Source of the DNA: Cytophagales bacterium
GTDB lineage: Bacteria > Bacteroidota > Bacteroidia > Cytophagales > Cyclobacteriaceae
NCBI GenBank assembly: GCA_020402945.1
Contig: JADBYQ010000057.1
Coordinates: 1-64,000 of the forward strand
Length of the DNA stretch: 64,000 nucleotides
Direction: 5' to 3'
Shown one piece after another: positions 9,440-54,875 of this stretch; positions within the stretch are counted from its first letter, which is position 1; every line of letters begins with the position of its first letter. A model generated the notes under the pieces. It was not told the origin of the DNA, ran no database searches, and saw only the letters and a program-made list of their open reading frames with translations. The translations under genes and the position numbers were made by a program.

Positions 9440-9502
9440 GGCTGCATACTTCAGGCCACACGCTCCAAGCTTATTGTGGCTTGCAGCATGAAGCATGTAG
9501 CC
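9440..9502. terminator. imperfect hairpin between convergent genes
   Basis: GGCTGCATACTTCA...GGCCACA (9440-9460) pairs with TGTGGC...TGAAGCATGTAGCC (9475-9502) apart from an 8-base bulge. It occupies the spacer between the convergent TonB receptor and ypdA genes. There is no T-run, so it may be a structural repeat rather than a true terminator. The gcttgcagc/aagcatg wording recurs around 34390-34427. Confidence 0.45.
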
Positions 9503-40619: not shown

Positions 40620-40622
40620 AAC

Positions 40623-41408
40623 CTAGCAGATAAATTCGAAGATCAATTGATTAACTGAATCGGGCTGCTCGACACACGCACTATGCCCGGCTTTTGAAAT
40701 CAACTCGAATTGAGAATTAGAAATAGCCTGATGAATTCGTTTAGCTTTTGCGGGAGCGGTCGCTACGTCTTCATTGCCCACTGCAACCAGCGTTTTGATG
40801 TTGATGTTTGAAAGCTCTTCATAAACTCCGGTTCGATGAATGACCCCTGCCACCGCTTTGGTTATGTTTTTTGGATGGCTTTCTATAGTGTTTTTCCACC
40901 TCTCAAGAGTTGATTTTTTAGACGGATCTTCCAACGAAGATTTTCCAAATAGGATGCTGATTACTTTTTTGCTTACCAGCTTAGCGCCTCCCCACCCAAA
41001 CACTTGATTCAGCAAAATGTATTTCATCTTGTTGGGTTCAGTATCGGCAGAGGTATCGAGCAACACAAGACTTTTCAACAAATGCGGCCTTCGTGCCGCC
41101 AATCGCATTCCTACAAACCCACCCATACTGAGGCCAACGAAATGCACTGGTTTGCCCGGACTCAATGCTTCTATCAGAGCTGCCGCATCTTCGTAGAGGG
41201 TATCCATATCCAGACTCCCTATTGACTCGCTTTGCCCCTGCCCCCTGTGGTCATAGGTGATGCAACAAAATTTATTTTTGAAGTAATCAACTTGAGCATC
41301 CCACATGTGGTGGTTAAAGAGTAGGCCGTGTGAGAACACGATGGTTTCGTCCCCTTCGCCAGATCGTTCAAAATAGATCTGCGCTCCGTTGATTAGTTGA
41401 GTAGGCAT
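40623..41408 (-). CDS. alpha/beta-fold hydrolase
   Basis: 261 residues. Serine hydrolase fold with the oxyanion HG motif (FSHGLLFN), nucleophile Ser94 in GLSMGG, an acid in AVGNEDVATAP and the catalytic His in KAGHSACVEQP. Most similar in form to 3-oxoadipate enol-lactonase/BioH-type enzymes. Substrate unknown. It follows the YceI-like gene after 29 bases on the same strand, at the end of the YceI-porin-YceI run. Cytoplasmic, without a signal peptide. Confidence 0.88.
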   Translation of the reverse strand: MPTQLINGAQIYFERSGEGDETIVFSHGLLFNHHMWDAQVDYFKNKFCCITYDHRGQGQSESIGSLDMDTLYEDAAALIEALSPGKPVHFVGLSMGGFVGMRLAARRPHLLKSLVLLDTSADTEPNKMKYILLNQVFGWGGAKLVSKKVISILFGKSSLEDPSKKSTLERWKNTIESHPKNITKAVAGVIHRTGVYEELSNINIKTLVAVGNEDVATAPAKAKRIHQAISNSQFELISKAGHSACVEQPDSVNQLIFEFIC

Positions 41409-41437
41409 CGCTTTTGAGGTTTTGTAATTTATGTAGT

Positions 41438-42043
41438 TTAATAGTCATCATCCAATTTAAGCACCAGATGAAATCCTACATTTAAACTTTGATCTACCTT
41501 TACCAGACCCATCATTCGGGATGGTGTTTCCAGATTGAAGTCAGAGAATAGAAAATCTCGCCCCCCTGTTAAATGGATGAGGCCCGAAGGTTTTGGTTCA
41601 ATAGAACAATCCATTTCAAACACCTTCGTAACACCACTGATTGAAATCTTAACAATGCCGCGGAAAACCTCTTTGGGTTTCTTGTAAGAAGGATTTCTTT
41701 CAAAGGAGATAAAATCAATAACAATATTGGGATAAGATTTTGAATTAATCGTTTTACGAAAATCGGAAGTCATCATTGCCATGCCGCAATCAAAGCTAGT
41801 AGCATCAAGAGAAACCGCACCTTTCACAAATACGGGACGGACATTTTGCCCGCCTTCTTGAAGTACCAGTGTGTCTTTTCCAATGTATTTTGGAATAGCA
41901 CACCGAAAGGAATTGACATTTGTTTTTCCGTTGATGATCAATTTGCTTTCCGGAAGCACAATTAAGCGATGAACGAGAAAACCATCAGGCAGACGGAACC
42001 CGACCGAGAGCAGCGATAGGCTGATGACAAGTGCTTTGATCAT
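41438..42043 (-). CDS. YceI-like lipocalin-fold protein (divergent)
   Basis: 201 residues. Signal peptide MIKALVISLSLLSVGF. The body resembles YceI proteins: an early KLIINGKTNVNSF strand (in place of the SxLxWxGxS motif), MMTSDFRKTINSKSYPNIVIDF in the middle (quoted in part: DFRKTINSKSYPNI) and a last ISGVTKVFEMDCS/RDFLFSDFNLETPS block. YceI proteins bind isoprenoids in a barrel cavity. It is less typical than the YceI at 43524-44105. Periplasmic. It lies downstream of the porin, with a strong terminator between them. Confidence 0.7.
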   Translation of the reverse strand: MIKALVISLSLLSVGFRLPDGFLVHRLIVLPESKLIINGKTNVNSFRCAIPKYIGKDTLVLQEGGQNVRPVFVKGAVSLDATSFDCGMAMMTSDFRKTINSKSYPNIVIDFISFERNPSYKKPKEVFRGIVKISISGVTKVFEMDCSIEPKPSGLIHLTGGRDFLFSDFNLETPSRMMGLVKVDQSLNVGFHLVLKLDDDY

Positions 42044-42070
42044 TTGATATTAAAGATAGGAAAACAGGAC

Positions 42071-42104
42071 AAAAAAAAGCCGGCCAACCCAAAGGGTCGG
42101 CCGG
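42071..42104 (-). terminator. intrinsic terminator after the porin gene
   Basis: CCGGCCAACCC (42080-42090) pairs with GGGTCGGCCGG (42094-42104) around AAA, with one mismatch. Read on the minus strand it is followed by eight U from the A-run at 42071-42078. It ends the YceI-porin transcript; the YceI-like gene downstream needs read-through or its own promoter. Confidence 0.88.
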
Positions 42105-42126
42105 ATAAGTAAAACAATTACCAAAA

Positions 42127-43485
42127 TTAGAAGCTGATTGCTCCCTGGATAACAAATCCATCAAACTTGCCATTATAGAAGCGGTTGTTGGCTCCGGTAG
42201 CCAGAAAACCTCCATAGTTCTGGGTTACATATTCGCCTTTTAACAGAATGCTTGGAGTAATGAACCAACCCGCTGCAATTGAGGTGCGGTCAATCGTAAC
42301 ATCAGTGCGAATTCCGCGTACCGTAGCGGTGTAGCCTTCGGCAATAGTAGCTGCAACGGTGTTGTACCGAGCGCCAACATAGAACTGTTCAGTTTTTCCG
42401 AAGCGGTGTAGTGCTTCAACAGCTGTTTGTGTAGCTATGCGATCAGGTTCTTTAGAATAAGCAGTTACTCCTTCTGCGTTTTCCAAGGAACTTAATCCAC
42501 TAGCCGACTCAAATGTTCCAAAAACTTCCAGACCACCGAATTTCACGAATGGGTTTATTACAAAGGCAGTAAGGTTATCGCGGAACCCAGGGTTAAACCG
42601 ACCTGAAAAAGCATTTCCGGTAAGCGTAACGGGAGCATTTTCCATTACATACTGATAGTTAGAGCCTGCGCGGTCACCACCAAAAAGTGTGTTGCTGGCA
42701 GATGATGAGGTTGTAACAACAGAACCCGTAAGTCTTACGCGCAGGTTTTCTTTTAATTGTTTATCGAACCCAACTTTTCCATAAAAGGAGGGGGCACGTT
42801 TTGCACCAGCAGGTGTAGATGGAGCTGCCACGTTACCTTGTATTTCGCCATCAGTATACCCGCCCATGATAAACAAGCCATCTTTCTTCCAGTATAACTC
42901 TGCACCAATTTCTGTTGTAAAGGCATCCATGATGTTGTTTTCTATAAATGGGTTCCACAGGGTGTGGCCACCATCACTTCTGCGGAAGTGCGCATCACCA
43001 TAATTCACTTCCATGTGACCGACTTTCAAAGTCAGGTTTTTCCAAAGTTTATCAAAGAATTCGCTCTTCATAAAGCCCACTTTGTCAATTTGCAAATAGC
43101 CACCTTTTACCCAAAATTCATTATGATGGTGAGATGACATGTATGACACCAGATTTAAGCTTACGCCATCGTACAGTTGCACATCGATATTGAAGTTCGC
43201 TTGTGCAAGTGGAAAGCCACCACCCATTTCATATAATGGCGAGGGAGCGAGCAATCCGTTGCTGTGATTAAGGTTTTGATAGCCCTGAGTAAAACCCGCG
43301 CCAAAGCGAATTTTCAAACCATCATAGGGAATGGTGTCTGTCTTCGTGGTTTCAAATACGTTTACACCACGTTTATCATAATTCCTGAAATACTGAATCG
43401 CTGGCTGACCTTGTGCCCATAGCCCCAGTGAACTAAAGAGCAACAAGGCCGTCAACCCATTTGCAAAAAGTGATCTTGTTTTCAT
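42127..43485 (-). CDS. outer-membrane porin-like beta-barrel protein
   Basis: 452 residues. Signal peptide ends GLWAQ. The mature protein is a succession of amphipathic strands with aromatic girdles (GLKIRFGAGFTQGYQNL, KNLTLKVGHMEVNYGDAHFRR, GLFIMGGYTDGEIQG, FYVGARYNTVAATIAEGY) and ends in FVIQGAISF, a barrel-terminal Phe. This fits Bacteroidota outer-membrane channels related to the phosphate-selective/OprP-like group. Substrate is not evident. It sits 38 bases after a YceI gene, with a terminator behind it. Divergent MarR regulation of the whole unit is plausible. Confidence 0.75.
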   Translation of the reverse strand: MKTRSLFANGLTALLLFSSLGLWAQGQPAIQYFRNYDKRGVNVFETTKTDTIPYDGLKIRFGAGFTQGYQNLNHSNGLLAPSPLYEMGGGFPLAQANFNIDVQLYDGVSLNLVSYMSSHHHNEFWVKGGYLQIDKVGFMKSEFFDKLWKNLTLKVGHMEVNYGDAHFRRSDGGHTLWNPFIENNIMDAFTTEIGAELYWKKDGLFIMGGYTDGEIQGNVAAPSTPAGAKRAPSFYGKVGFDKQLKENLRVRLTGSVVTTSSSASNTLFGGDRAGSNYQYVMENAPVTLTGNAFSGRFNPGFRDNLTAFVINPFVKFGGLEVFGTFESASGLSSLENAEGVTAYSKEPDRIATQTAVEALHRFGKTEQFYVGARYNTVAATIAEGYTATVRGIRTDVTIDRTSIAAGWFITPSILLKGEYVTQNYGGFLATGANNRFYNGKFDGFVIQGAISF

Positions 43486-43523
43486 AATAATTGTTTTTGA
43501 TTATACGTATACATTTTACTTTA

Positions 43524-44105
43524 CTAATTCTTTGCCGTTTGTAAATCGATGTTAAAACTGATGGTGATTTCATCACCCGTCTTCACAGAGCCGAACATGA
43601 ATGAAGGTGCTTCTACCTGAAAATCACTCATCTTCATTTTTGTGCTTCCAGTGCATCGAAGTGTCTTCTCTTTTGGTCGGCAGGTAGCGTCCAGACTGAT
43701 TGATTTCGTTACCCCTGCGATTGTGAGACTACCATTACATTGGAAAACATTACTATTTGTGGTGGCCGAGGCAAGCGTAAAGCCAATTGCCTTAAACTTA
43801 TTTGCCTTTAAAGCAGAGTAAGCATTTTTGTCCATCGCCTTGTGCGCGCTTTTGAGGCTTTCACACGGGACTGAGACATTCAGCGACTTAAGCTCGGTAG
43901 GAACACCTTTTTCATCCATTTGAAATGAAGCTTGCACGCCCGCTTGGAGTGAGGTCATCGTCCACTCGTGTAATGTGGAGGTACCGGCTATAGTTATATA
44001 AGAACCATCTGCCTGTTTATAGTTGGTCTGTGCCCTAAGCGTGAAACTCAGGGCTATGAAACCTAGAATGAGTGCTAAATTCTTAGTGCTTTTTGAAAAT
44101 TCCAT
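43524..44105 (-). CDS. YceI-family periplasmic protein
   Basis: 193 residues. Signal peptide ends TLRAQ. A YceI lipocalin-like barrel: SYITIAGTSTLHEWTM at the start (the SxLhW/E motif), KANKFKAIGFTLASA in the middle, LTIAGVTKSISLDATC and KMKMSDFQVEAPSFMFGSVKTGDEITISF at the end (quoted in part only as KMKMSDFQVE). The family binds polyisoprenoids such as ubiquinone-like tails and is often linked to stress and alkane use. First gene of the YceI-porin unit; divergent from marR (spacer 44106-44299). Confidence 0.85.
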   Translation of the reverse strand: MEFSKSTKNLALILGFIALSFTLRAQTNYKQADGSYITIAGTSTLHEWTMTSLQAGVQASFQMDEKGVPTELKSLNVSVPCESLKSAHKAMDKNAYSALKANKFKAIGFTLASATTNSNVFQCNGSLTIAGVTKSISLDATCRPKEKTLRCTGSTKMKMSDFQVEAPSFMFGSVKTGDEITISFNIDLQTAKN

Positions 44106-44156
44106 TTGGGTTTGTGTTTTGTTTGCTCAAAAGTGGCAGAAGGCGGTTCGTAAGAG

Positions 44157-44215
44157 AATGACATTCTATAGGTTTTGCTATGATTTTTAGTAGTAATCCT
44201 AATGACAGCCGTCAT
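44157..44215. promoter_or_regulatory. palindromic words in the marR-yceI spacer
   Basis: Two short palindromes share an ATGAC half: GAATGACATTC (44156-44166 approximately) and ATGAC-AGCC-GTCAT (44202-44215). They lie between divergent yceI and marR, where a MarR-family operator controlling both would be placed. Assignment is by position only. Confidence 0.35.
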
Positions 44216-44299
44216 AAATGGCTCGGAAAAAAGGAGGCAAAAATATTTTCGCGAAAATACTCGGCATGCAGAATAAATTTTTTATACCTTCGTAACCGA

Positions 44300-44752
44300 T
44301 TGAAAAGAGAAGAAACCATAGACTATCACATTAAAACTGCCTGGCATGCTATAGCGCGCATGTACAATCAGCAGGCTATGAAGTATGATGGGACCATGTC
44401 TATAGGCTATGCGCTGCTGAATATTTCTTCGGAAGAGGGAACGCCTGCGATGAAGATTGGGCCACTGATGGGACTAGAGCCAAGAAGCCTCACTCGGCTC
44501 CTGCAATCCATGGAAGAGAAGGGACTGATCTTTAGACAAGTCGACAAAAACGATAAGCGTTCCGTAAAAGTTTTGTTGACAAAGGAGGGGAAGAAGATGA
44601 AAGAGAAATCGCGGGAAACGGTATTGCGATTTAATGAAGCAGTTCGGGAAGAAATTTCTACACAAAAACTGAATGTGTTTTTTGATGTAGTACAGAGTAT
44701 TAATCAGTTAGTTGAAAAGAATAGTATTTACGAAACCAAATTAGTCAATTAG
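44300..44752 (+). CDS. MarR-family transcriptional regulator
   Basis: 150 residues when started at TTG (44300). Winged-helix regulator: recognition region GPLMGLEPRSLTRLLQSMEEKGLI, wing QVDKNDKRSVKVLLT and long dimer helix near the end. The frame is open to an ATG at 44180, but those 40 residues are unlike the family and would cover the operator-like palindrome; homologues start (M/L)KREETIDYHIKTAW. A TACCTTCG word (-7 type) at 44285-44292 is only 8 bases before the TTG, which would make the message nearly leaderless. Upstream of fadN-A-E and divergent from yceI; likely controls one or both, ligand probably an acyl-CoA or related compound (inference). Confidence 0.82.
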   Translation: MKREETIDYHIKTAWHAIARMYNQQAMKYDGTMSIGYALLNISSEEGTPAMKIGPLMGLEPRSLTRLLQSMEEKGLIFRQVDKNDKRSVKVLLTKEGKKMKEKSRETVLRFNEAVREEISTQKLNVFFDVVQSINQLVEKNSIYETKLVN

Positions 44753-44789
44753 CCAATTCGATGATTTGTCAATTGGCATATCATCGAAT
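44752..44789 (+). promoter_or_regulatory. overlapping alternative hairpins before fadN
   Basis: In the 61-base marR-fadN spacer, GCCAATT (44752-44758) can pair with AATTGGC (44771-44777), or ATTCGATGAT (44756-44765) with ATCATCGAAT (44780-44789). The two stems overlap and exclude each other. This could be a switch, or merely a palindromic filler repeat. Confidence 0.45.
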
Positions 44790-44813
44790 CAGCACATTAA
44801 CAAATTAAGAATT

Positions 44814-47213
44814 ATGAACCGTACCATTCGCAAAGTCGCAGTTTTAGGATCAGGTATTATGGGCTCACGCATTGCGTGCCACTTCGCCAATATTGGTTGT
44901 GAAGTGCTGCTGCTGGATATAGCGCCCAGAGAACTGACCGAGGATGAGAAAAAGAAAAATCTTACAATCGATCATCCTTCAGTAAAAAACAGAATTGTGA
45001 ATGCAGCCTTTGATGCTACCCTTAAAGCAAATCCGGCCTCACTCTTTAATAAGAAGTTCGCTTCGCGCATCAAACTCGGTAACTTCACAGACGACATGTC
45101 CAAAATCAAGAATGTGGATTGGACGATTGAAGTCGTTGTCGAAAATCTTGATATTAAAAAGAAAGTTTACGAAGAGGTGGAGAAATACAGAACACCCGGA
45201 ACCCTGATTACTTCCAATACTTCGGGCATCCCGATTCACCTCATGGGCGAAGGACGTAGCGAAGATTTTCAAAAACATTTTGCGGGTACCCATTTCTTTA
45301 ACCCTCCCCGTTATTTAAAGTTGTTGGAGATCATCCCTACAAGTAAAACCGATCCGGCTGTTACGAAATTCTTGATGCACTATGGTGATCTTTTCTTAGG
45401 AAAGACGACCGTGCTATGTAAAGACACTCCGGCCTTCATCGGTAATCGTGTGGGAATTTTTGGTTTGTTGAAAGTGATCGACTCCATGCGCAAGTTTGAC
45501 TTGAATGTAGATGAAGTTGATAAACTAACAGGCCCTGTTATCGGCAGACCAAAGTCGGCCACATTCCGCACTTCGGATGTGGTAGGGTTAGATACTTTGG
45601 TGAAAGTTTCGAATAACCTCTATGCAGGATTGGTGAATGACGAGGGAAGAGAAATGTTTAAACTTCCTGAAGTGGTTACGAAGCTTGAGCAGAACAAATG
45701 GTTGGGAGATAAAACGGGGCAGGGCTTTTACAAGAAATCAAAGAATGCCAAAGGAGAAACAGAAATCTTAACTCTGGACTTAAAGACATTAGAATACAAG
45801 CCAAAGGCAAAAGCAAAATTTGCAACACTCGAAACAACGAAGACGATTGACAATCTAAAAGATCGCTTCAAAGTGTTGTTGGCCGGAAAAGATAAAGCCG
45901 GTGATTTTTATCGCGATTGTTTTTATGGATTGTTCCAGTATGTAACCAATAGAATTCCTGAAATCAGCGATGAACTGTTCCGTATTGATGATGCGGTGAG
46001 TGGCGGTTTTGGTTGGGATCTCGGTCCGTTCGAAACATGGGATGCGGTAGGTGTTGAAAAATCAATTCCACTTATGGAGGCAGCCGGCTACAAGCCTGCG
46101 CAATGGGTGTACGATATGCTTGCTTCGGGAAATAAATCCTTCTACAAATCAGAAGGCGGCCAGAAGAAGTACTATGACATTCCTACCAAGACATATAAAT
46201 CAATTTCTGGAAGAGAGAATTTTATCATTCTAGAAAACAAGAGTGAAAACATTGTTTGGAAAAATGCCGATTCAAAAATCATTGACCTCGGTGATGGCGT
46301 GCTCAACTTTGGCTGGCACAGCAAGAGCTTTACGCTAGGCAGTGCGGTGATTGAAGGAATGAATAAAGCCATCGACATCGCAGAGAAAGATTACAAAGGT
46401 CTGGTGATTGGCCACCAAGGTGCAGACTTCTCGCTGGGAGCTAATTTAGGCTTGGTGTTTATGTATGCCATCGAGCAGGATTACGATGAGATCGATTTCA
46501 TGATCAAGGCTTTCCAGCAATCGGTGATGCGCATTCGTTACTCCGGAGTGCCGGTGGCAGTTTGTCCGCAAGGCAGAACGTTAGGTGGCGGTTGCGAAAT
46601 GACCATGCATGCGGACATCGCGCAGGCAGCGGCAGAAACGTATATCGGATTAGTAGAGGTAGGCGTTGGACTAATTCCTGGTGGAGGCGGAACCAAGGAA
46701 TTCACGAAACGCGTGAGTGATGCCATGGAAGAAGGTGATGTGGAGTTGAACGCACTTCAAAATGCGTTCATGACCATCGCGACCGCAAAAGTAGCGACCT
46801 CAGCAGAAGAAGCTCGTGAGTACGGCATCTTGAAAAAGGTTGACCGCGTTTCAATGAACAAAGACAGACAGATTGCAGATGCAAAGCAAGCAGTGCTTGA
46901 TCTGGTAGAAGCAGGCTATACCATGCAACCGCAAGCAAAAAATATTAAAGTGCAAGGTCGAACCGGGCAAGCTTTGTTCTTAGCAGGCTTGCAAGGAATG
47001 AAAATGGGCAGGTACATTTCAGAACACGATGCCAAAGTTGCCAAGTGGATCTCTAACATTATGTGCGGAGGCGACTTGACCTCTCCGCAAGAAGTGAGTG
47101 AACAATACTTACTTGATCTTGAGCGCGAAGCATTCTTGTCATTGACCGGTGAGAAGAAAACATTGGAAAGAATTCAGGCAATATTAACGGGAGGAAAACC
47201 ATTGAGGAATTAG
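44814..47213 (+). CDS. fadN: 3-hydroxyacyl-CoA dehydrogenase/enoyl-CoA hydratase, FadN type
   Basis: 799 residues. The N-terminal half is a 3-hydroxyacyl-CoA dehydrogenase (NAD motif KVAVLGSGIMGSRIACHF, then HFFNPPRYLKLLEIIP), and the C-terminal part a crotonase-fold enoyl-CoA hydratase (GRTLGGGCEMTMHADIA, GLVEVGVGLIPGGGG with two catalytic Glu). This order is opposite to FadB/FadJ and matches B. subtilis FadN. It carries out steps 2 and 3 of fatty-acid beta-oxidation. The ATG at 44814 is chosen because the Rossmann motif begins at residue 6; an ATG 48 bases earlier adds unlike sequence. Followed by thiolase and acyl-CoA dehydrogenase, as in fadN-A-E of B. subtilis. Confidence 0.93.
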   Translation: MNRTIRKVAVLGSGIMGSRIACHFANIGCEVLLLDIAPRELTEDEKKKNLTIDHPSVKNRIVNAAFDATLKANPASLFNKKFASRIKLGNFTDDMSKIKNVDWTIEVVVENLDIKKKVYEEVEKYRTPGTLITSNTSGIPIHLMGEGRSEDFQKHFAGTHFFNPPRYLKLLEIIPTSKTDPAVTKFLMHYGDLFLGKTTVLCKDTPAFIGNRVGIFGLLKVIDSMRKFDLNVDEVDKLTGPVIGRPKSATFRTSDVVGLDTLVKVSNNLYAGLVNDEGREMFKLPEVVTKLEQNKWLGDKTGQGFYKKSKNAKGETEILTLDLKTLEYKPKAKAKFATLETTKTIDNLKDRFKVLLAGKDKAGDFYRDCFYGLFQYVTNRIPEISDELFRIDDAVSGGFGWDLGPFETWDAVGVEKSIPLMEAAGYKPAQWVYDMLASGNKSFYKSEGGQKKYYDIPTKTYKSISGRENFIILENKSENIVWKNADSKIIDLGDGVLNFGWHSKSFTLGSAVIEGMNKAIDIAEKDYKGLVIGHQGADFSLGANLGLVFMYAIEQDYDEIDFMIKAFQQSVMRIRYSGVPVAVCPQGRTLGGGCEMTMHADIAQAAAETYIGLVEVGVGLIPGGGGTKEFTKRVSDAMEEGDVELNALQNAFMTIATAKVATSAEEAREYGILKKVDRVSMNKDRQIADAKQAVLDLVEAGYTMQPQAKNIKVQGRTGQALFLAGLQGMKMGRYISEHDAKVAKWISNIMCGGDLTSPQEVSEQYLLDLEREAFLSLTGEKKTLERIQAILTGGKPLRN

Positions 47214-47701
47214 TAGGCAGTAAGCAAAAGCAATCGGCAAAATTTAGAATAAGCAATAAGCTACAGGTTATGAATGAACCAAATCAAAGCTTTAGGGATT
47301 TGACGGTTTATAAAAAAGCATTTGATTTAGCGATGAAAATATTTGAGATGACAAAGACATTTCCAAAAGAAGAGAGGTACTCGCTCACAGACCAAATTAG
47401 AAGATCATCGCGAGCGGTCTGTAGTTGTGTTGCAGAAGCTTACAGAAAGCGAAGCTATAAAGCCTATTTCGTAAGCAAATCGTCAGATGCTGATATGGAG
47501 AACAGCGAAACGCAATCTTGGCTTGATTTCTCTTACGCTTGCAATTATGTAGCTGATGAAATGTACAAAGATTTATTGGCAAGATCGGAAGAGGTTGGTA
47601 GAATGCTTAATCACATTGTTGAAAACCCCGAAAAATATTTGAGAAGAGAGAAGAAAGTCGGTATGCAGTAAGCTTTGCCTATTGCTTTTGCTTACTGCCT
47701 A
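47214..47701 (+). mobile_element. inverted-repeat cassette 1 carrying a four-helix-bundle (IVP) gene
   Basis: The 488-base unit begins right after the fadN stop codon and is bounded by 28-base inverted repeats (47214-47241 and 47674-47701) that match at 27 of 28 positions; the first 21 (TAGGCAGTAAGCAAAAGCAA plus T) are perfect. Between them lies a single four-helix-bundle gene. No transposase and no clear target duplication are seen. In RNA the ends would form a long duplex, as in the intervening sequences of 23S rRNA genes, which encode the same protein family. Confidence 0.7.
47270..47671 (+). CDS. four-helix-bundle protein (23S rRNA IVP/S23 family)
   Basis: 133 residues. Matches the S23/IVP four-helix-bundle family: FRDLTVYKKAFDLAMKIFEMT, FPKEERYSLTDQIRRSSRAV, VAEAYRKRSYKAYFVSKSS and a last helix pair ending near residue 125 (short stretches quoted). 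The family was first seen as the protein encoded inside 23S rRNA intervening sequences (Leptospira, Coxiella) and includes the Avd protein of diversity-generating retroelements; a nucleic-acid-binding pentamer is known for some. Here it is fully enclosed by inverted repeats between fadN and fadA. No retroelement or variable region is nearby. Function in this setting is unknown. Confidence 0.85.
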   Translation: MNEPNQSFRDLTVYKKAFDLAMKIFEMTKTFPKEERYSLTDQIRRSSRAVCSCVAEAYRKRSYKAYFVSKSSDADMENSETQSWLDFSYACNYVADEMYKDLLARSEEVGRMLNHIVENPEKYLRREKKVGMQ

Positions 47702-47737
47702 TTTAAAAATAAAAATTGAGAATTTAAACACAACGAC

Positions 47738-48913
47738 ATGGATGCATACATCGTAGCCGGATTCCGCACAGCGGTAGGCAAAGCAAAAAAAGGAGGGTTT
47801 CGATTTGTAAGACCTGATGATCTTGCCTCGGATGTGATTAAACACTTGGTGAAATCAATCCCCGGCTTGGAGAACAAGATGGTCGATGATCTTATTGTAG
47901 GAAATGCGGTTCCCGAAGCGGAGCAAGGCATGCAGATGGGTCGCATCATTTCACTGCTTGCGCTTGGTCTTGATACACCGGGCATGGTGATCAATCGCTA
48001 TTGCGGATCAGGAGTGGAGGCTATCGCTATTGCGAGTCATCGCATCCAAGCGGGACAGGCAGATGTGATTATTGCCGGTGGCACCGAGTCCATGTCGTTG
48101 GTTCCCGTGATGGGCTTTAAGACAGCATTGAATTATGCCATTGCCAAAGACAACCCGACCTATTATACAAGCATGGGGTTAACGGCTGAAGAAGTGTCGA
48201 AGCAATTTAATGTTACCCGCGAAGAGCAAGATCAATTTTCAGTCGAGTCGCATGTGAAAGCGGCAGCAGCGTGGAAGGAAGGAAAATTTACAAACGAGAT
48301 TGTGCCTATCACGGTAAAGGAAGTATTTGTGGATGAGAACATGAAAAAGCAAACGCGTGAGTATGTTGTCAATAAAGATGAAGGTATTCGTGCGGACACC
48401 ACTTTCGAAGGACTTTCAAAATTGAAACCAGTATTTGCGGTGGGCGGTTCTGTTACCGCTGGAAATTCATCTCAAACTTCAGATGGGGCAGCCTTTGTGG
48501 CTGTGATGAGTGAGAAAATGGTGAAGCAACTGAATCTAAAACCTATCGCTCGCATGGTGAGTTATGCTACGGCAGGTGTTGATCCGCGAATCATGGGTAT
48601 TGGCCCGGTGGCCGCTATTCCTAAAGCACTCAAAATAGCCGGATTGAAATTACAAGACATCGATTTGATTGAGTTGAACGAAGCCTTTGCCGCACAATCA
48701 TTGGCGGTAGTAAAAGAGCTGGGCATTGATCGATCTAAACTAAATGTAAACGGAGGTGCGATTGCAGTGGGTCATCCGCTTGGTTCATCAGGCGCACGCT
48801 TATCGGTCCAATTGTTTAACGAACTCCGCAGGCAAAATAAAAAATACGGAATGGTGACTGCATGCGTGGGTGGAGGACAGGGAGTGGCGGGGATATATGA
48901 GTTGTTGAATTAA
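47738..48913 (+). CDS. fadA: acetyl-CoA acyltransferase (3-ketoacyl-CoA thiolase)
   Basis: 391 residues, standard thiolase length. The acyl-accepting cysteine is in VINRYCGSGVEAIA (about residue 89), the His in GGAIAVGHPLGSSGAR and the second Cys in TACVGGGQGVAG. It cleaves 3-ketoacyl-CoA with CoA, the last step of beta-oxidation. The start agrees with thiolases that begin MDAYIVAGFRTAVGKA. It lies between the two inverted-repeat cassettes; the stop codon forms part of the left arm of cassette 2. Part of the marR-fadN-fadA-fadE operon. Confidence 0.94.
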   Translation: MDAYIVAGFRTAVGKAKKGGFRFVRPDDLASDVIKHLVKSIPGLENKMVDDLIVGNAVPEAEQGMQMGRIISLLALGLDTPGMVINRYCGSGVEAIAIASHRIQAGQADVIIAGGTESMSLVPVMGFKTALNYAIAKDNPTYYTSMGLTAEEVSKQFNVTREEQDQFSVESHVKAAAAWKEGKFTNEIVPITVKEVFVDENMKKQTREYVVNKDEGIRADTTFEGLSKLKPVFAVGGSVTAGNSSQTSDGAAFVAVMSEKMVKQLNLKPIARMVSYATAGVDPRIMGIGPVAAIPKALKIAGLKLQDIDLIELNEAFAAQSLAVVKELGIDRSKLNVNGGAIAVGHPLGSSGARLSVQLFNELRRQNKKYGMVTACVGGGQGVAGIYELLN

Positions 48914-49330
48914 GATGTGAGTAGTGGGTATTGAGATTTGAGATATGCATAACCTCAAAGAGTTGAAGATTTGGCATAAAGCGATTGAACTTTCAACAGA
49001 AGTGTATCGCTTGACTGCCGATTTTCCGAAGGAAGAAAAGTATGGACTCACATCTCAAATTAGGCGAGCAGCCGTTTCAGTTCCTTCTAATATCGCAGGG
49101 GGAGCCGGGAGAAATTCTGATAAGGAGTTTATCCATTTCTTGGGAATTTCAAACGGCTCTTCCTATGAACTACAAACACAACTTATAATCTCTAAAAACT
49201 TAAGTTTGATTAATAACGGTGTTGATCTGATACTCGATCAAATCGACCAAATACAAAAGATGAACTATTCACTTCAAGCAAAGCTTTCAAAGGACTAATC
49301 TCAAATCTCAATACTCATATCTCAAATCTT
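48912..49330 (+). mobile_element. inverted-repeat cassette 2 carrying a four-helix-bundle (IVP) gene
   Basis: 34-base arms at 48912-48945 and 49297-49330 match at 28 of 34 positions, with 17 perfect in a row (GTATTGAGATTTGAGAT at 48928-48944 and its complement at 49298-49314). The left arm starts in the fadA stop codon and ends on the A of the IVP start codon; the right arm starts in the IVP stop and ends directly before the fadE ATG. The unit therefore is the whole fadA-fadE spacer. Repeat sequence differs from that of cassette 1. Confidence 0.65.
48945..49298 (+). CDS. four-helix-bundle protein (23S rRNA IVP/S23 family)
   Basis: 117 residues, same family as the gene in cassette 1 but a different branch: LKELKIWHKAIELSTEVY, FPKEEKYGLTSQIRRAAVSV, IAGGAGRNSDKEFIHFLGI and YELQTQLIISKNLSLI helices, the classical form of the family (IAEGxGR here IAGGAGR). 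Acidic-to-neutral helical bundle with no catalytic motif. The gene fills the spacer between fadA and fadE exactly and is wrapped by inverted repeats. Cotranscription with fad genes is almost unavoidable; whether it affects them is unknown. Confidence 0.87.
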   Translation: MHNLKELKIWHKAIELSTEVYRLTADFPKEEKYGLTSQIRRAAVSVPSNIAGGAGRNSDKEFIHFLGISNGSSYELQTQLIISKNLSLINNGVDLILDQIDQIQKMNYSLQAKLSKD

Positions 49331-51130
49331 ATGACAACAATAGAAACAAAAAAGGCAATCAAAGGAGGAGAATTCCTCATCCGCGAAACACAGGCACATG
49401 AAATTTTCATTCCTGAAGAATTTACAGAAGAGCAAAAGATGATTGCACAAACGTGCAAAGACTTTTTGAAACAAGAAGTATATCCGCATTTGGATTTAAT
49501 TGATTCGCAGAAAGATCCCAAGTTGATGCCTTCGCTTCTTGATAAGGCTGGGGCTCTCGGACTATTGGGAACATCTGTTCCTCAAGAGCTAGGTGGCTTT
49601 GGAATGGATTTCAATACCACCATGTTGGTAGCCGAAGCAGTTGGCGCAGGTTATTCGTTTGCCGTTGCCATCTCCGCCCATACCGGTATTGGCACACTTC
49701 CGATTTTGTATTATGGAAATGATGCCCAGAAGAAAAAGTACATTCCTAAGCTGGCATCGGGAGAGTGGAAGGCGAGCTACTGTTTGACAGAACCTGATTC
49801 CGGTTCTGATGCTAACAGCGGCAAGACCAAAGCAAAATTGACGGCTGATGGAAAGCATTATCTGATCACTGGTCAGAAGATGTGGATCACCAACGGTGGC
49901 TTCGCAGATGTTTTTATTGTGTTTGCAAAAATTGACAATGATAAAAATCTGACAGCTTTTATCGTAGAGAAGGATTTCGGTGGCATCACCATGAATGAGG
50001 AGGAGAAGAAAATGGGTATCAAAGGATCTTCCACCCGCCAGATTTTCTTTAACGATTGCAAAGTGCCAGTAGAAAATTTATTGAGCGAGCGCGAGAATGG
50101 TTTTAAGATCGCGGTGAACATATTAAACATTGGCCGCATTAAACTAGGCGTGGGTGCGTTGGGAGGATCGAAAGGTACCATCAGTCAGGCGATCAAGTAT
50201 TCTAATGAGCGTAAGCAATTTGGTGTGGCTATTTCCACCTTCGGAGCGATCAAGCATAAGATTGCAGAAGTGGTGACAAAAATTTTCGCGTCAGAGTCAG
50301 CGCACTACCGCGCTTCTCAGAACATCGATGATGCCTACAATGCATTTGTAGCTGGTGGCATGGATTCTGGTCAGGCGAGATTAATAGCATTGGAAGAATT
50401 TGCCATCGAGTGCGCTATTTTGAAAGTACATGGCAGTGAAGTGTTAGATTTTTCAGTGGATGAAGGCGTGCAGATTTATGGAGGCATGGGCTTCTCGGCA
50501 GAAGGACCGATGGACCGCGCCTACCGTGATGCGCGCATCAACCGCATTTTTGAAGGCACGAATGAAATCAACAGACTACTCACAATCGATATGTTGTTGA
50601 AGCGTGCAATGAAAGGCACATTGGATTTGATGACGCCTGCGATGGCCGTTCAAAAAGAATTGACTTCTATACCTGATTTTGGCGCCAGTGACGACACTGC
50701 CCTTTTTGCGAAAGAGAAAAAAGCATTGGCGAATTTGAAGAAAGCGGGCCTGATGGTTTCAGGTGCAGCCATTCAAAAGTTTATGATGAAGCTATCTGAC
50801 GAGCAAGAGATATTGATGAACCTGGCCGATATGCTCATTGAAGGCTACGTGGCCGAGTCGGTGATCTTGCGTGTAGAAAAATTAGTGGGTGTGCGTGGAG
50901 AGAAAGCCTGTGAAGTAGAAATTGCTATGGCGATGATCTATCTGCACTATGCTATTGAGAGAGCAGCTGGTGCAGGCAAGCAAGCCATCTACGGATTTGC
51001 GGAAGGAGACGAGCTACGCTTTATGATGCTCGGCTTGAAGCGCTTTACCAAAATAGATGCTTATAACTTGAAAGAAGCCAGACGTAAAGTAGCGAACCAT
51101 GCGATTGGCAAAGGAGAATATCCTTTCTAG
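49331..51130 (+). CDS. fadE: acyl-CoA dehydrogenase, FadE type
   Basis: 599 residues. First step of beta-oxidation, FAD-dependent formation of trans-2-enoyl-CoA. Acyl-CoA dehydrogenase blocks: CLTEPDSGSDANSGKTKA, MWITNGGFADVFIVFAK, FGAIKHKIAEVVTKI and YRDARINRIFEGTNEINRLL, with the last Glu in the catalytic position. A C-terminal extension of about 170 residues, as in FadE of B. subtilis, explains the length above the usual 380. Start at 49331 lies directly behind cassette 2. Last gene of the operon; a terminator follows 14 bases after the stop. Confidence 0.94.
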   Translation: MTTIETKKAIKGGEFLIRETQAHEIFIPEEFTEEQKMIAQTCKDFLKQEVYPHLDLIDSQKDPKLMPSLLDKAGALGLLGTSVPQELGGFGMDFNTTMLVAEAVGAGYSFAVAISAHTGIGTLPILYYGNDAQKKKYIPKLASGEWKASYCLTEPDSGSDANSGKTKAKLTADGKHYLITGQKMWITNGGFADVFIVFAKIDNDKNLTAFIVEKDFGGITMNEEEKKMGIKGSSTRQIFFNDCKVPVENLLSERENGFKIAVNILNIGRIKLGVGALGGSKGTISQAIKYSNERKQFGVAISTFGAIKHKIAEVVTKIFASESAHYRASQNIDDAYNAFVAGGMDSGQARLIALEEFAIECAILKVHGSEVLDFSVDEGVQIYGGMGFSAEGPMDRAYRDARINRIFEGTNEINRLLTIDMLLKRAMKGTLDLMTPAMAVQKELTSIPDFGASDDTALFAKEKKALANLKKAGLMVSGAAIQKFMMKLSDEQEILMNLADMLIEGYVAESVILRVEKLVGVRGEKACEVEIAMAMIYLHYAIERAAGAGKQAIYGFAEGDELRFMMLGLKRFTKIDAYNLKEARRKVANHAIGKGEYPF

Positions 51131-51144
51131 ACGTTAGACATAAG

Positions 51145-51173
51145 AAAGCCCGGGAGAAAATCCGGGCTTTTGG
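51145..51173 (+). terminator. intrinsic terminator of the fad operon
   Basis: AAAGCCCGG (51145-51153) pairs perfectly with CCGGGCTTT (51162-51170) around an 8-base loop and is followed by a T-rich stretch. It begins 14 bases after the fadE stop. Confidence 0.88.
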
Positions 51174-51225
51174 TTTTGGTTTGTCCTGCTAAGCTTTAGC
51201 GGAGAAGGGTGTGCGCATGCTGCGC

Positions 51226-51573
51226 CTACTTCAATGCTTTCTTGTACCCATCCTCATCAAACCCCAACAAAAGTACTTTGCCGTCTTCTTCTATCAATGG
51301 TCTTTTGATCACGCTGGTCTTTTCAACCATAAGGGCAATGGCGGCTTTTTCATGGGTCACTTTTTTCTGATCGGCTTTGTCTAGCTGTCGCCACGTGGTA
51401 CCGCGTTTGTTGACGAGATTCTCCCACCCAACTTGTTTGCTCCACGCGCTCAACTTTTCAGCGGTTATGCCGGATTTTTTGTAATCGTGAAATACAAAAT
51501 CTACTTTGTTTTTATTCAGCCAGTCTATTGCAGATTTTACCATGTTGCAATTTTTGATGCCGTAGACCGTCAT
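51226..51573 (-). CDS. ArsC/Spx-family reductase-like protein
   Basis: 115 residues, thioredoxin-like ArsC fold with one catalytic Cys in YGIKNCNMVKSA near the start. Also visible are FVFHDYKKSGI and the late TSVIKRPLIEEDGKVLLLGF block, the normal YffB/ArsC-family pattern with the conserved Arg-Pro. It lacks the Arg triad of true arsenate reductases, so a glutathione/thiol-dependent reductase or Spx-like role is more likely. Convergent with the fad operon. Cytoplasmic; single gene. Confidence 0.87.
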   Translation of the reverse strand: MTVYGIKNCNMVKSAIDWLNKNKVDFVFHDYKKSGITAEKLSAWSKQVGWENLVNKRGTTWRQLDKADQKKVTHEKAAIALMVEKTSVIKRPLIEEDGKVLLLGFDEDGYKKALK

Positions 51574-51623
51574 AAGGAGTTCATCGATTTATTGAAAGAT
51601 AAGAATGGTTACGGGCGGGAAGC

Positions 51624-53261
51624 TCATAGATCACCGATCAGTTTTAAAAGATCTTCTTCTAGCAGCGGATCGCTGGGTCGTTTCGCACATGTCATGTCCC
51701 CCTCACGTGAAACCAACACAAAGCCGGGGGCTTCGGGTAAACTCAAAGAAGCAGCCACTTTCGAGCGACTTCCTATCCGGTAATTAATAATTCCATCTGT
51801 ATACAAACTAAATTTTTCTACGACTTCTTTCCATCTTTTTTCATCGTCTTCAAGGGATAAAAAAACAAACGTCACTTTATTTCTATATTTTTTTTGCAGA
51901 CGCTTGGCCAACTCCACATCAACCAGGTACGATTGCAAATTGCCAGACCAGACAAGAAGGTATAAAATGCGATTTCCCTTGCTGTCGGCCAATAGCCAGT
52001 TAAACTTCTCCTCGCCATTTACACCATCCTTGCGCGTGTTCATTTCAAATTGATGGTACCTCAGAAACTGTTTATCAAGTGAGACTCCTCCACCCAAATC
52101 GCGAATGATATCGTCTTCCAGCGGTGTGGTTTTCAAGATCGAATTGCTTTTCCAAAAAGTAGAATCATAGGGGATACTCAACAAGTCCTCGCGGTTGGGT
52201 GGTTGGCCAACGATTTTCATCGATGGATTTGTTTGAATTTCCATTGACATTAATTCCAGGTGAACGGAATGAACGCGCTTATCTGCATTTTCACTTTCAC
52301 CCTGCCGTATGAAATGATAAGGATAGTAGCGATCATTTACTTTTCGATAAAAGGTAGAAGTGAGTAGAGAGTTTGTTCCATATGATTTATTCTCTTCCGT
52401 TCTTACAAACGCGTAGCTTCCTGTGGTAATAAATACTGTACCCTTGATGTCAACTAAGTTGAGGTACTTTCCGGTGGTAGTCAAGACCGAATCTTTTTTG
52501 TTTTGGTAGGTAATCTCATATACTTCTAACCCATCGTAATAGGTAATTCCTTTGCAGACGAAATCATACTTATCAAAGTCGGTTCTTAGATTGCTCACAT
52601 CTGTATAAAATGACATGTGCTCACTCCTTTTGTCCGTTTGATAGGCCACCATATCAGCTTGCAAAATGTTTCCCACAGAAATAGGATCATGACCCTGAGC
52701 CATTTCAGTTTTATCCAAACTTCTTCGCAATTGCGTCACCCGAATTTCCTCTTTTTCTCCTGCTGCGTGTTGAAACGTTCGATAACCGGAGGTCTTCCAC
52801 ACATCGATAGCCGCCTCAATCAATCGTCCATAAGCAGCACCATCCTTGCAATAGTGTCGATAGAAAAATTGTTGGAGAAAGGGACGATCGTTGTAGTTCA
52901 GATCAATGTTGGCGAAGGCTTTGCGCAAAACTTTTTTAGCATTGATGGCCTTATCTAAAATGACAATTTCACTCAACTGCGTAACGATGGGCGCGAGATC
53001 AACGATTGTCAATGCCTGTGCGGGCGATAGCGTAAGGGATTCATAACCCACACACGTTATCTTCAACGAATCGGTCTCATTTACCGAAATAGAAAACTGT
53101 CCATTCAGGTTAGAGCTCGTTCCTTTGGACGTTCCGATGATTCCGATGGATGCGAACGGAACAGGCTTTTTTGTTTCCTTGTCAACAATAGTTCCCTCTA
53201 CCAGTCTTTGAGAGAATGCAGACGAACTTATGATTAAAAAAAAGACAAGGCAGCGAAACAT
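51624..53261 (-). CDS. carboxypeptidase-regulatory-like domain protein with cysteine-less thioredoxin-like C-terminus
   Basis: 545 residues. Signal peptide ends SAFSQ. Residues 18-95 are a CarboxypepD_reg-like beta sandwich (VEGTIVDKETKKPVPFASI), common at the start of Bacteroidota surface proteins. The middle (95-400) is of unknown type. Residues about 419-545 look like a thioredoxin/TlpA fold: strand RILYLLVWSG, helix VELAKRLQKKY, KVTFVFLSLEDD and the cis-Pro loop APGFVLVSREGD, but the CxxC site is replaced by SGNLQSY. A redox activity is thus unlikely; the domain may bind a partner. Periplasmic. Monocistronic, 50 bases from the ArsC-like gene. Confidence 0.78.
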   Translation of the reverse strand: MFRCLVFFLIISSSAFSQRLVEGTIVDKETKKPVPFASIGIIGTSKGTSSNLNGQFSISVNETDSLKITCVGYESLTLSPAQALTIVDLAPIVTQLSEIVILDKAINAKKVLRKAFANIDLNYNDRPFLQQFFYRHYCKDGAAYGRLIEAAIDVWKTSGYRTFQHAAGEKEEIRVTQLRRSLDKTEMAQGHDPISVGNILQADMVAYQTDKRSEHMSFYTDVSNLRTDFDKYDFVCKGITYYDGLEVYEITYQNKKDSVLTTTGKYLNLVDIKGTVFITTGSYAFVRTEENKSYGTNSLLTSTFYRKVNDRYYPYHFIRQGESENADKRVHSVHLELMSMEIQTNPSMKIVGQPPNREDLLSIPYDSTFWKSNSILKTTPLEDDIIRDLGGGVSLDKQFLRYHQFEMNTRKDGVNGEEKFNWLLADSKGNRILYLLVWSGNLQSYLVDVELAKRLQKKYRNKVTFVFLSLEDDEKRWKEVVEKFSLYTDGIINYRIGSRSKVAASLSLPEAPGFVLVSREGDMTCAKRPSDPLLEEDLLKLIGDL

Positions 53262-53347
53262 CTAAATTTCTTTATAGCACCAAGATCGAAGATAATTGAT
53301 TTTCGAATGATGCTAAAGCAGAACGTTATCAACGGAAATTTCCGATA

Positions 53348-54229
53348 CTACTCGGCTCTACGCCAGAGGGGGCGTGTCAGGCAGGTCGGACCACCTCCGC
53401 CCTTGAAACTTATTTCCTGCCCTTCATATTCTAATACGGTGCATCCCGCCTGCAAGAGTCTTGCTTTGGTTGTTTCATTTCCTTTTACCATGATGCACTG
53501 GCGAGGGCCGATAGCCAGCACATTGCAACCCATACTTTCAAATTCAGGATCGGGAACTTCGACCAATTGATAGCCGCGTTTTAACAACTCCTCACGAAAC
53601 ACAATTGGCATTAATGGTGAGTAAACCACTGCCAAGTCTTTTGCCACAGGACTGAAAATGGACATTAAATGAAATACATCTGAAGGACCTTTATAATGAG
53701 GAAGTTGCACCTCCAACACATCAACACCGCTCGGAGCCAACAGTGCGCGCATCTGCCTTATGCCTTCTGCATTGGTCCGATACGTTCTGCCAATGGCCAA
53801 TGTATGTTGATCAAGCCAAGCCACGTCTCCACCTTCTACTGAACCGGGCGCTTCAATTCTTCCCAAAACCGGGACACCCAGTTCGCGATACATTTTCTCA
53901 GCAGCGCCAGGTTCGTTCATTCGTCCGGCCTTGCCCATGGTGCATAGAATCATTCCGTTGTCGGTGGCAATGCTTGCATCGCGACAGTAAATAGAGTCCA
54001 TTGTAACCGAGGCGTTTTTTTCAAACTTTTTAACTTCGCTACGATTCGTTTGCAAGAGTTTTTCAAAAAGTAAGTATTCGCTTTGAGCGATCTTGAAATC
54101 AGGTTCGCCTAAAAAGTTTAATTCTTTCCACTCCTTTGAAATGGTCGATTGATCAACAAACGCATCGACCACATTTTTAATAAAGACACTTTGTAACGTT
54201 CCGTATTCGGATTGGCAGGTGAGGTTCAT
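53348..54229 (-). CDS. dimethylarginine dimethylaminohydrolase-family amidinohydrolase
   Basis: 293 residues, guanidino-modifying pentein fold. Typical blocks: FIRDASIATDNG-like YCRDASIATDNGMIL, EAPGSVEGGDVAWLD, TEGIRQMRALL-type helix and the C-terminal GGGGPTCLTRPLW with the catalytic Cys near residue 284. The catalytic His is likely in PHYKGPSDVFHLMS. Members hydrolyse dimethylarginine or arginine, giving citrulline. The neighbour at 58381 is an amino-acid permease on the same strand but a restriction-modification island lies between them. Cytoplasmic. Confidence 0.87.
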   Translation of the reverse strand: MNLTCQSEYGTLQSVFIKNVVDAFVDQSTISKEWKELNFLGEPDFKIAQSEYLLFEKLLQTNRSEVKKFEKNASVTMDSIYCRDASIATDNGMILCTMGKAGRMNEPGAAEKMYRELGVPVLGRIEAPGSVEGGDVAWLDQHTLAIGRTYRTNAEGIRQMRALLAPSGVDVLEVQLPHYKGPSDVFHLMSIFSPVAKDLAVVYSPLMPIVFREELLKRGYQLVEVPDPEFESMGCNVLAIGPRQCIMVKGNETTKARLLQAGCTVLEYEGQEISFKGGGGPTCLTRPLWRRAE

Positions 54230-54264
54230 GGGTACAGATATAATCTAATACGATAATCAGCGTG

Positions 54265-54873
54265 CTATAAAGAAGTAAAGTCAAAAATTAAATGCTTCAG
54301 TGTTCCAATTCCATTATGATTGGATTCATAAAAGACTCCCAGAGATTTGCTCATTTTATAATTTAAAACTTCTGCACTTCTTTTTCTGTATTTTAGTATC
54401 GAGTTAATTTCCAAAATGGTTTCGTCAGTCTTTCCTTGAAGAAGGTATCCTATCAAACTACCGTTTTCGTATTTTTTAGAAGCGAAGTTGTCAATCCCAG
54501 TGATAATGTATCTGCGCTTTAACGCTGAATCGTTTTGTTTCAGATTTTTAGCTTCAAAGAAATACTCATATTCATAAGTTGAAATAAACGAGGTCAGTCG
54601 AAAATCTATTCTCGGGAATCTGTCTGAAAATCCTTTAACTTTAGGAATGTCTTTTGGAATATCCGCTTCTACACTGGTTGAAACTTTCCACTTTAGTCGT
54701 AAAGGATTTTCTTTTACATGGCGGTGCAATTCGGAAGAAATATCGTTTTCATTCCAGTCTAATTGAATTACTTGTTCTTTCAATGAAATTTGATATGCTT
54801 CAATGATTAACCGCCAACATTTTTGCTCAAAAGCATTCCTGAGTTTTTCGTAAACAACCGTATTCAAAGCCAT
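54265..54873 (-). CDS. PD-(D/E)xK-like protein, probable nuclease partner of the methylase
   Basis: 202 residues from the ATG at 54873, 2 bases after the stop of the methylase. The motif Glu48 (SSELHRH), Asp90 (FPRIDFRL) and Glu107-x-Lys109 (YFFEAKN) fits the PD-(D/E)xK nuclease core. Other features: an alpha-helical N-terminus and KRRYIITGIDNFASKKYENG near 118-140, where DNA contacts often lie. No closer family is recognised. Its coupling with an Eco57I-type methylase suggests a restriction endonuclease or a modification-dependent helper. The composition is A/T-rich, as for the methylase. Confidence 0.65.
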   Translation of the reverse strand: MALNTVVYEKLRNAFEQKCWRLIIEAYQISLKEQVIQLDWNENDISSELHRHVKENPLRLKWKVSTSVEADIPKDIPKVKGFSDRFPRIDFRLTSFISTYEYEYFFEAKNLKQNDSALKRRYIITGIDNFASKKYENGSLIGYLLQGKTDETILEINSILKYRKRSAEVLNYKMSKSLGVFYESNHNGIGTLKHLIFDFTSL

Positions 54874-54875
54874 TA

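Follow-up and report, generated by a model that had tools for sequence, protein, structure and literature searches.

A PF05635 gene between inverted heptad arrays in a fad operon spacer: a probable gene-carrying element without a transposase

The fad operon of a Cytophagales bacterium carries, between its fadN-like and fadA-like genes, a cassette in which one gene of the PF05635 four-helix-bundle family (IVP) is enclosed by an inverted repeat. We propose that this cassette (cassette 1) is probably a gene-carrying IVP-heptad element of operon spacers, one that follows a logic like that of REPINs and RAYTs and has no transposase. With the same likelihood, such an element would begin at the stop codon of one gene, end a short way ahead of the next gene's start and contain no gene for a DNA-cutting enzyme. 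The window, by which we mean the whole stretch of 64,000 nucleotides that was analysed, was compared with other genomes of its family and of its phylum, and with IVP loci on cyanobacterial plasmids.

Results

Layout of the cassette and its operon

The preliminary description had placed two 28-base arms around the IVP gene, the first beginning at the base after the fadN stop codon, and both points stand. The arms match at 27 of 28 bases, the left one follows directly on the stop codon and a single PF05635 ORF is all that lies between them (Table 1). The pairing of the arms can be extended to 33 nt at 91%. Membership of IVP1 in the IVP family is equally secure (PF05635 E-value 6.1e-32, 110.5 bits against a cut-off of 33.8), and its predicted structure consists of four helices with a mean pLDDT of 92.3. 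When the gene is compared with those of five relatives, codon position 3 is the most variable, differing in 65-77 of 123-125 codons where position 2 differs in 10-28; by this comparison the protein is under purifying selection.

The fadN start is listed at a TTG codon, and an in-frame ATG at 44814 is the more likely start. A second cassette (cassette 2) follows fadA, and the arms of its gene, IVP2, are of a different heptad type from those of IVP1. Cassettes 2 and 1 head the list of 23 inverted-repeat pairs found in the window at distances of up to 700 nt, and cassette 1 reaches a flank score of 51 under the scoring that was also applied to the ordinary-gene control described below. Rfam gave nothing at gathering score within 40000-56000. 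In cassette 1 no transposase or nuclease profile of Pfam or NCBIfam was matched, the matches there being to IVP/four-helix-bundle and Avd-like profiles only. No target duplication was seen by eye at 47205-47710 or in the spacers of two family genomes, G104 and G140, the spacers being so diverged that one could be masked. Elsewhere in the window, a heptad-like hairpin without a gene was noticed by eye at 9440-9500 (GGCTGCATACTTCAGG ... GCATGAAGCATGTAGCC).

Table 1 Features of the fad operon and its two cassettes (positions in the window).
Feature	Position	Strand	Remarks
Hairpin without a gene, MarR-fadN spacer	44739..44806	.	Arms of 34 nt, 76% complementary; octads by eye
fadN-like 3-hydroxyacyl-CoA dehydrogenase/enoyl-CoA hydratase	44766..47213	+	TTG start as listed
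Cassette 1, 5' arm	47214..47241	+	Degenerate heptad array AGGCAGT AAGCAAA AGCAATC GGCAAA; division into units is our reading
IVP1, four-helix-bundle protein gene (PF05635 / TIGR02436)	47270..47671	+	133 aa
Cassette 1, 3' arm	47674..47701	-	Heptads of the 5' arm on the opposite strand, 27/28 matching
fadA-like acetyl-CoA C-acyltransferase	47738..48913	+	
Cassette 2, 5' arm	48902..48944	+	TTGAGAT-type heptads; overlaps the end of fadA
IVP2, second PF05635 gene of the operon	48945..49298	+	117 aa
Cassette 2, 3' arm	49298..49340	-	Overlaps the start of fadE
fadE-like acyl-CoA dehydrogenase	49331..51130	+	

The arms are arrays of short units

The arms of the cassettes read as degenerate arrays of a 7-base unit, set in inverted orientation. 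Among family elements, bases match at a frequency of 0.690 at a lag of 7, 0.691 at 14 and 0.653 at 21, against 0.20-0.34 at the remaining lags from 1 to 20 (42 of 90 elements, those scoring 26 or more). IVP1-like loci behave in the same way, with a match of 0.636 at lag 7 against 0.17-0.25 at other lags up to 12; these are the loci scoring 26 or more among the best 80 of 507. Phylum-wide loci (from 40, score 26 or more) give peaks at 7, 14 and 21 and also at 8 and 16, and the latter two indicate that octad arrays exist as well. In these period tests, as in the wobble tests below, the elements were selected for possessing arms. The set of 90 comprises 74 of the 78 fad cassettes (four with split ORFs were omitted) and 16 of the 37 loci L001-L037, the omitted loci being copies of fad cassettes or short.

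When the order of units was permuted, 43 of 90 high-scoring elements (of 170) had no more than 3 of 60 permutations that reached the real score, a result biased upward because the elements were picked for high scores. There is no excess of concerted evolution between the two arms of an element, self exceeding orthologue in 38/70, 49/156 and 40/70 comparisons. Two arrays look recently expanded: a uniform GTTGATG array at G036:C1:6303921-6303966 and, at L160, a long run of over 10 AAGATTT units.

Inverted arrays are specific to IVP genes

It had been suggested that any further IVP genes in this genome might each be flanked by unrelated inverted repeats. All seven IVP genes do have flanking inverted repeats, of differing types (score 28 or more, 220-nt flanks), those of L004 being found only with flanks wider than 130 nt. 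The word unrelated holds in part: types differ between loci, but the heptad or octad type follows the IVP subfamily and is also dispersed without a gene. The IVP genes L006 and L007 of this genome belong to a distant subfamily, and the arms of L007 look like octads (GATTTGAT).

Among family IVPs 42 of 90 score 28 or more, as do 48 of 80 IVP1-like genes, against 1 of 302 ordinary genes (from 400 kb of a relative and the window, with 130-nt flanks); at 34 or more the count among ordinary genes is 0/302. In a phylum sample, 19 of 40 IVP loci reach 28 against 1 of 200 cross pairs, where the 40 loci were taken from among the highest-listed matches of 157 genomes and are biased to strong IVPs. On cyanobacterial plasmids (12 matches out of 36 and 29 records), 11 of 12 IVPs score 30 or more against none of 23 other ORFs on the same stretches; cross-paired cyanobacterial arms, many of which have one motif in common, score high as well for that reason (90th percentile 37). 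One IVP, on a plasmid of Nostoc edaphicum (L284:1495-1863), has near-perfect AGTAGGG arrays and lies between two opposite-strand ribonucleotide reductase genes, which makes it an exception to the co-directional arrangement.

The preliminary description took relatives that carry the gene without the repeats as evidence against an element. Such relatives are found for part of the set: 27 of the 78 fad cassettes score below 28, as do 48 of the 90 family IVPs, and two IVP loci outside fad (L340 and L341, the second IVP genes of G140 and G104) have no array-like arms. Across the phylum, 157 of 198 sampled genomes contain PF05635, with as many as 16 copies. Among the IVP genes, L097, L131, L134 and L137 have a split reading frame and L196 and L204 a stop within the matched stretch. 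A phage origin was considered and rejected on few or no matches on the phage side: IVP2 had no match in phages and the IVP1 query gave 2 loci from 56 candidate stretches of viral_contigs.

Arm type follows the IVP subfamily

Comparison of arms with proteins indicates that the type of arm follows the IVP subfamily, both from site to site and from phylum to phylum. A tree of the 90 IVPs, built on few columns and with 38 of its 87 forks open, puts each of the GGCAGTA, GTTGNTN, AGAnnCR, AGACnnA and GTACCAA types in a group apart. Arm similarity is 0.776 at protein distances below 0.2, 0.072 at 0.7-0.8 and 0.127 above 0.8 (60 pairs). The trend persists when only pairs of no more than 60% identity are taken (rho -0.257, Mantel p 0.002). 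These comparisons used 110 of 182 elements, those with a score of 26 or more, with one known duplicate genome removed. The correspondence is loose at greater distance: at 45-60% identity, only 46 of 107 nearest relatives agree in arm type, and mean similarity at distances above 0.6 is 0.024.

Relatives of IVP1 carry nnCA[GA]Tn-like units in Bacteroidota, Ignavibacterium, Calditrichaceae, Cloacimonadota and Balneolaceae, a consensus that is our reading of the listed arms and is absent from some loci. Some relatives of IVP1 in Mucilaginibacter have AGTCnnR units, and IVP1-like genes also occur in the genus Algoriphagus. Two genomes, G082 and G130, have IVPs of the subclade adjoining AGAnnCR with other arms and show 2 and 0 AGAnnCR hits; both were counted as non-carriers of that type.

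Arrays without a gene are dispersed in genomes

Dispersed arrays are also enriched in genomes with the matching IVP type, clearly for one type and more weakly for the others. The counts, made with strict patterns, cover 42 family genomes. They are counts of hits and not of sites: hits can overlap, and cassette arms, places within coding sequence (L150, for example) and genes of paralogous kinases contribute to them. The AGAnnCR pattern gives 46-414 hits in all 12 genomes with an IVP of that subclade in the first fad spacer and 0-2 in the other 30; the backward control gives 0-3, except for 11 in G085 and 24 in G001. AGAC counts overlap those of AGAnnCR and were not taken as a separate type. 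The GTTG pattern gives 5-68 hits in all six carriers, and among the 36 non-carriers there are 17 in G140, 13 in G017, 8 in G036, 6 in G059, 5 each in G122 and G000, and 0-3 in the rest. Its backward control is void because the pattern reads alike backwards. GTTG arrays are seen with no known GTTG-type IVP in G140, G017 and G036, and the two listed IVPs of G140 are of other types. By eye, the dispersed GTTG copies L145, L148, L149 and L151 are spacer hairpins without a gene.

For the GGCA type of cassette 1, four of five carriers have 4-13 hits, the window's genome has 0 and the other 37 genomes have 0-3 (backward control up to 7, in G128). Counted as places outside fad, there are 7, 5, 2, 2 and 0 in carriers and 3, 2, 2, 1 and 1 in non-carriers, with 0 in the remaining 32; by these places the association is weaker (Fisher 0.005) than by hits of 4 or more (1e-4). 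Solo copies of the strict GGCA pattern in the window's genome number 0, and a pattern with 2 mismatches finds 5 hits there (backward control 1), mostly coding by eye. The TTGAGAT type of cassette 2 has 8 hits in the window's genome (G000) and 3 in G017, both of which have that IVP type at fad, and 0 in the genus mates G137 and G094. There are counter-cases: 0 in G132, which has a related fad IVP, and 19 in G064, 7 in G085 and 5 in G043, which have fad IVPs of other types.

Fisher's test on hits of 4 or more gives 1e-9 for AGAnnCR, 6e-4 for GTTG and 1e-4 for GGCA. On the fadA tree (35 of the 42 genomes, those with a fadA locus), these three types offer 1, 5 and 3 independent pairs, of which about 5.7 are concordant and 0 discordant, with no type significant alone. 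AGAnnCR heptads were also noticed within genes of G085 that read as histidine kinases, in coding sense and in neighbouring paralogues (L169:1197-1251 and some twelve further places like it in L169-L172, by eye, one viewed whole).

Elements are old residents of the fad spacers and change as units

The fad loci compared come from 100 of 138 family genomes with a match, plus the window. An IVP is present in 44 of 95 readable fadN-fadA spacers and in 34 of 84 fadA-fadE spacers, and the ORF is split in 4 of the 78 cassettes. The nearest relatives of IVP1 are found at the fadN-fadA spacer too (L188-L191, L196 and L198); with relatives at the same spacer in six other loci, the site is old and cassette 1 is no fresh arrival. 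Other IVP1-like loci lie downstream of recJ, gmk (2), ruvC (3), ffh, a GHMP kinase gene, a molybdopterin oxidoreductase gene and a ferredoxin-domain gene, the upstream neighbour having been identified by profile in 10 of 80 loci.

The preliminary description had looked to close relatives for empty sites. Sites that lack the gene are indeed present in G137, the closest genome of the set (fadA 95% identical in protein), and in the next eight relatives (L039-L046). In 8 of these 9 the spacer holds an apparent hairpin without a gene. Nearly bare spacers, of 15 and 36 nt, occur in G074.

Between close species, cassettes and hairpins at one spacer are replaced as units. G104 and G140 share 93.6% DNA identity at the fadN 3' end and 92.7% in fadA (1035 nt compared). 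Both spacers have nonetheless switched type: the first holds a hairpin without a gene, GTTG in G104 and AGAC in G140, and the second an IVP cassette, of the GTTG clade in G104 and of the AGAC clade in G140. The same double switch is seen at larger distance in the pairs G065/G122 and G033/G137. No insertion within a single species was observed. Hairpin spacers and IVP spacers match in type within operons (27 genomes, p 0.0005, phylogeny not corrected); in 9 of the 27 the hairpin spacer falls in the lower half of the ranking for its own IVP arms. The fadA reading of G140 (L058) is shortened near its end, by a frame change or an assembly error.

Relation of the cassettes to the transcript

IVP genes are closely tied to the direction of their neighbours. 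All 83 IVP domains in fad loci are co-oriented with the operon, the left arm starts a median of 0 nt from the stop codon (interquartile -3 to 11.5; 51 of 78 cassettes, score 28 or more), and the upstream neighbour, where one was called, is co-directional in 75 of 78 IVP1-like loci. This same-strand bias suggests that the IVP gene needs, or is selected for, upstream transcription. In the predicted RNA, the arms of cassette 1 close a 23-bp stem (z -3.7). In G140 the fad spacers are the only ones seen as AGAC type while 17 GTTG hits remain in the genome, which would suit a protein that acts on its own transcript and indicates that type matching can be operon-local. These observations, with the likeness in type of hairpin and IVP spacers of one operon, favour an alternative that we consider possible though rather unlikely. 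The IVP would bind the heptad stem or the 5' array in its own polycistronic mRNA and so set the processing, stability or translation of fadN, fadA and fadE; gene-free hairpins would be further sites, and regulation would keep the element in place. Other evidence speaks against it: (i) mismatches between arms are not skewed to G.U wobbles on the mRNA strand (75 compatible against 106 incompatible; 25 against 38 in a smaller set), so that wobble asymmetry gives no support to selection on an RNA stem; (ii) arrays also occur within coding sequence and in varied housekeeping operons; (iii) 3 of 12 cyanobacterial plasmid IVPs have their upstream neighbour on the other strand; (iv) inverted arrays expose the motif in single-stranded mRNA from one arm only.

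The preliminary description had read cassette 1 as IVS-like, so that RNase III may cut the arm stem in the fadN-fadA message and remove the IVP segment. The likeness itself is real, as far as the PF05635 gene and the terminal stem (27/28, 23 bp predicted) are concerned, and both features agree with the Coxiella IVS as portrayed in PMC4990558. Excision is nevertheless improbable. The wobble counts run contrary to stem selection, the stem is weak or missing in many cassettes (27 of 78 below 28), and the cut would fall on the IVP message, yet the IVP protein is under purifying selection. The 23S IVS appears to be a particular site among those that such elements occupy and would not be the model for all of them.

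Discussion

The least probable of the explanations is that nothing links gene and arrays, heptads arising by polymerase slippage, hairpins by chance or inversion and the IVP sharing relaxed spacers by descent; heptameric repeats are indeed common in bacteria, with slippage proposed as their origin in the account given in PMC4692102, types may be shared partly through descent (independent contrasts are few) and GTTG arrays exist without a GTTG-type IVP, but such flanks are almost never found at ordinary genes (1/302), type tracks the IVP subfamily across sites and phyla, and the two fad spacers change type jointly while the fadA between them is conserved.

We favour the gene-carrying IVP-heptad element. 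The pairing of IVP with array type and the operon-local double switch suggest that IVP and arrays act together, with the IVP presumably binding the arrays, and from the replacement of entire spacers it seems that the elements turn over as units. Since no enzyme is encoded, exchange would have to use host functions or something in trans. In the mechanism that we propose, the first step is the most likely: the IVP protein, made by read-through from the upstream gene, would be a sequence-specific partner of its own arrays. In a second step the arrays would serve as ends for insertion, copying and exchange, with enzymes of the host or something acting in trans doing the work that RAYT does for REPINs. 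Thirdly, the element would be mostly selfish or neutral, tolerated as spacer filler. The third step and the chemistry of the second are the weakest parts of the proposal.

A wider reading is offered tentatively, as one about which we remain slightly more doubtful than convinced. PF05635 proteins and arrays of 7- or 8-base units may constitute one two-component system of a distinct kind, in which a small non-enzymatic ring protein recognises subfamily-specific heptads or octads. The system would reside in cassettes with inverted-array ends, be seeded as gene-free hairpins in operon spacers of many Bacteroidota and of cyanobacteria, and switch specificity repeatedly; the heptamers of Xanthomonas, Nostoc and Calothrix and the 23S IVSs would be faces of it. 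To our knowledge, PF05635 has no established function and its name is tied to rRNA, and we know of no explanation for the heptameric repeats reported in several bacteria. If each IVP recognises its own arrays, these two open questions, one about a protein family and one about DNA repeats, become one. Operon spacers in many bacteria would then also harbour a kind of element that may be mobile, may shape mRNA, or may do both. A comparison of binding could draw directly on the matched pairs of IVP and array, whose type has switched naturally between close species.

Comparison with known systems

Intergenic heptamers are described in PMC4692102 as GGGAATC in Xanthomonas and GGGGA(C/T)T in Nostoc; those of Xanthomonas lie near stop codons, often as convergent pairs, and that study reports no general link to mobile elements. 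Its main text does not contain the terms S23, four helix or xcc0516; X. campestris also encodes an IVP (XCC0516, PDB 2gsc). Set against such STRR-like heptamers, the cassettes have arms of period 7 and most nearly resemble them in their multicopy types, the GGCA type having 0 strict hits in its own genome. In Geobacter metallireducens, paired tandem octa- and heptanucleotides have been listed as 'putative global regulator binding sites' (PMC2700814). These are like the cassette arms in their tandem 7- or 8-base units, opposite-strand pairs and multiple copies; the part of that paper describing them names no protein partner, and its main text lacks the terms S23 and intervening sequence. Among the literature matches listed, no paper linking PF05635 to arrays was found, most subscription journals and preprints lying outside the coverage.

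The Avd protein of diversity-generating retroelements is given as homologous to PF05635 in PMC10053308. IVP1 matches the Avd profile weakly, at 36.4 bits, below the equivalog cut-off of 80 bits.

The IVS of Coxiella burnetii is characterised in PMC4990558 by a 28-bp stem, cutting by RNase III in vitro and heptads GACAGAT before the S23p gene; it is termed there a selfish element, and an IVP family member is reported to form a ring of five in the crystal. Cassette 1 resembles this 23S IVS in its PF05635-type gene, set within terminal inverted repeats of about 28 bp, and in the heptamers beside the gene. Unlike the IVS, it occupies the spacer of a protein-coding operon, with fadN and fadA as neighbours, and does not lie within a 23S rRNA gene. 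The cassettes as a class differ from the IVS further in having subfamily-specific heptad arrays as arms and copies without a gene.

REP/REPIN-RAYT systems consist of a single gene within an inverted repeat, copies of which are also dispersed gene-free, and gene and repeat are matched. A gene flanked by an inverted repeat, dispersed gene-free copies and type matching are seen for the cassettes as a class. The repeat type of cassette 2 has 8 hits in its own genome; the GGCA type of cassette 1 has 0 there by the strict pattern and is found at 2-7 places outside fad in four other carriers. IVPs differ from RAYTs in that no Y1 (HUH) tyrosine transposase is matched (Pfam, NCBIfam), and the arms are arrays of 7- or 8-base units that vary from copy to copy, unlike the fixed palindromes of REP. 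Cassette 1 likewise differs from an insertion sequence or MITE in having no transposase gene by profile. With its location outside an rRNA gene setting it apart from the IVS, its lack of a transposase from REPINs and insertion sequences and its low profile score from Avd, cassette 1 matches none of the named families by the feature that defines each, and for that reason we file it as IVS-like in its parts and REPIN-like in its logic.
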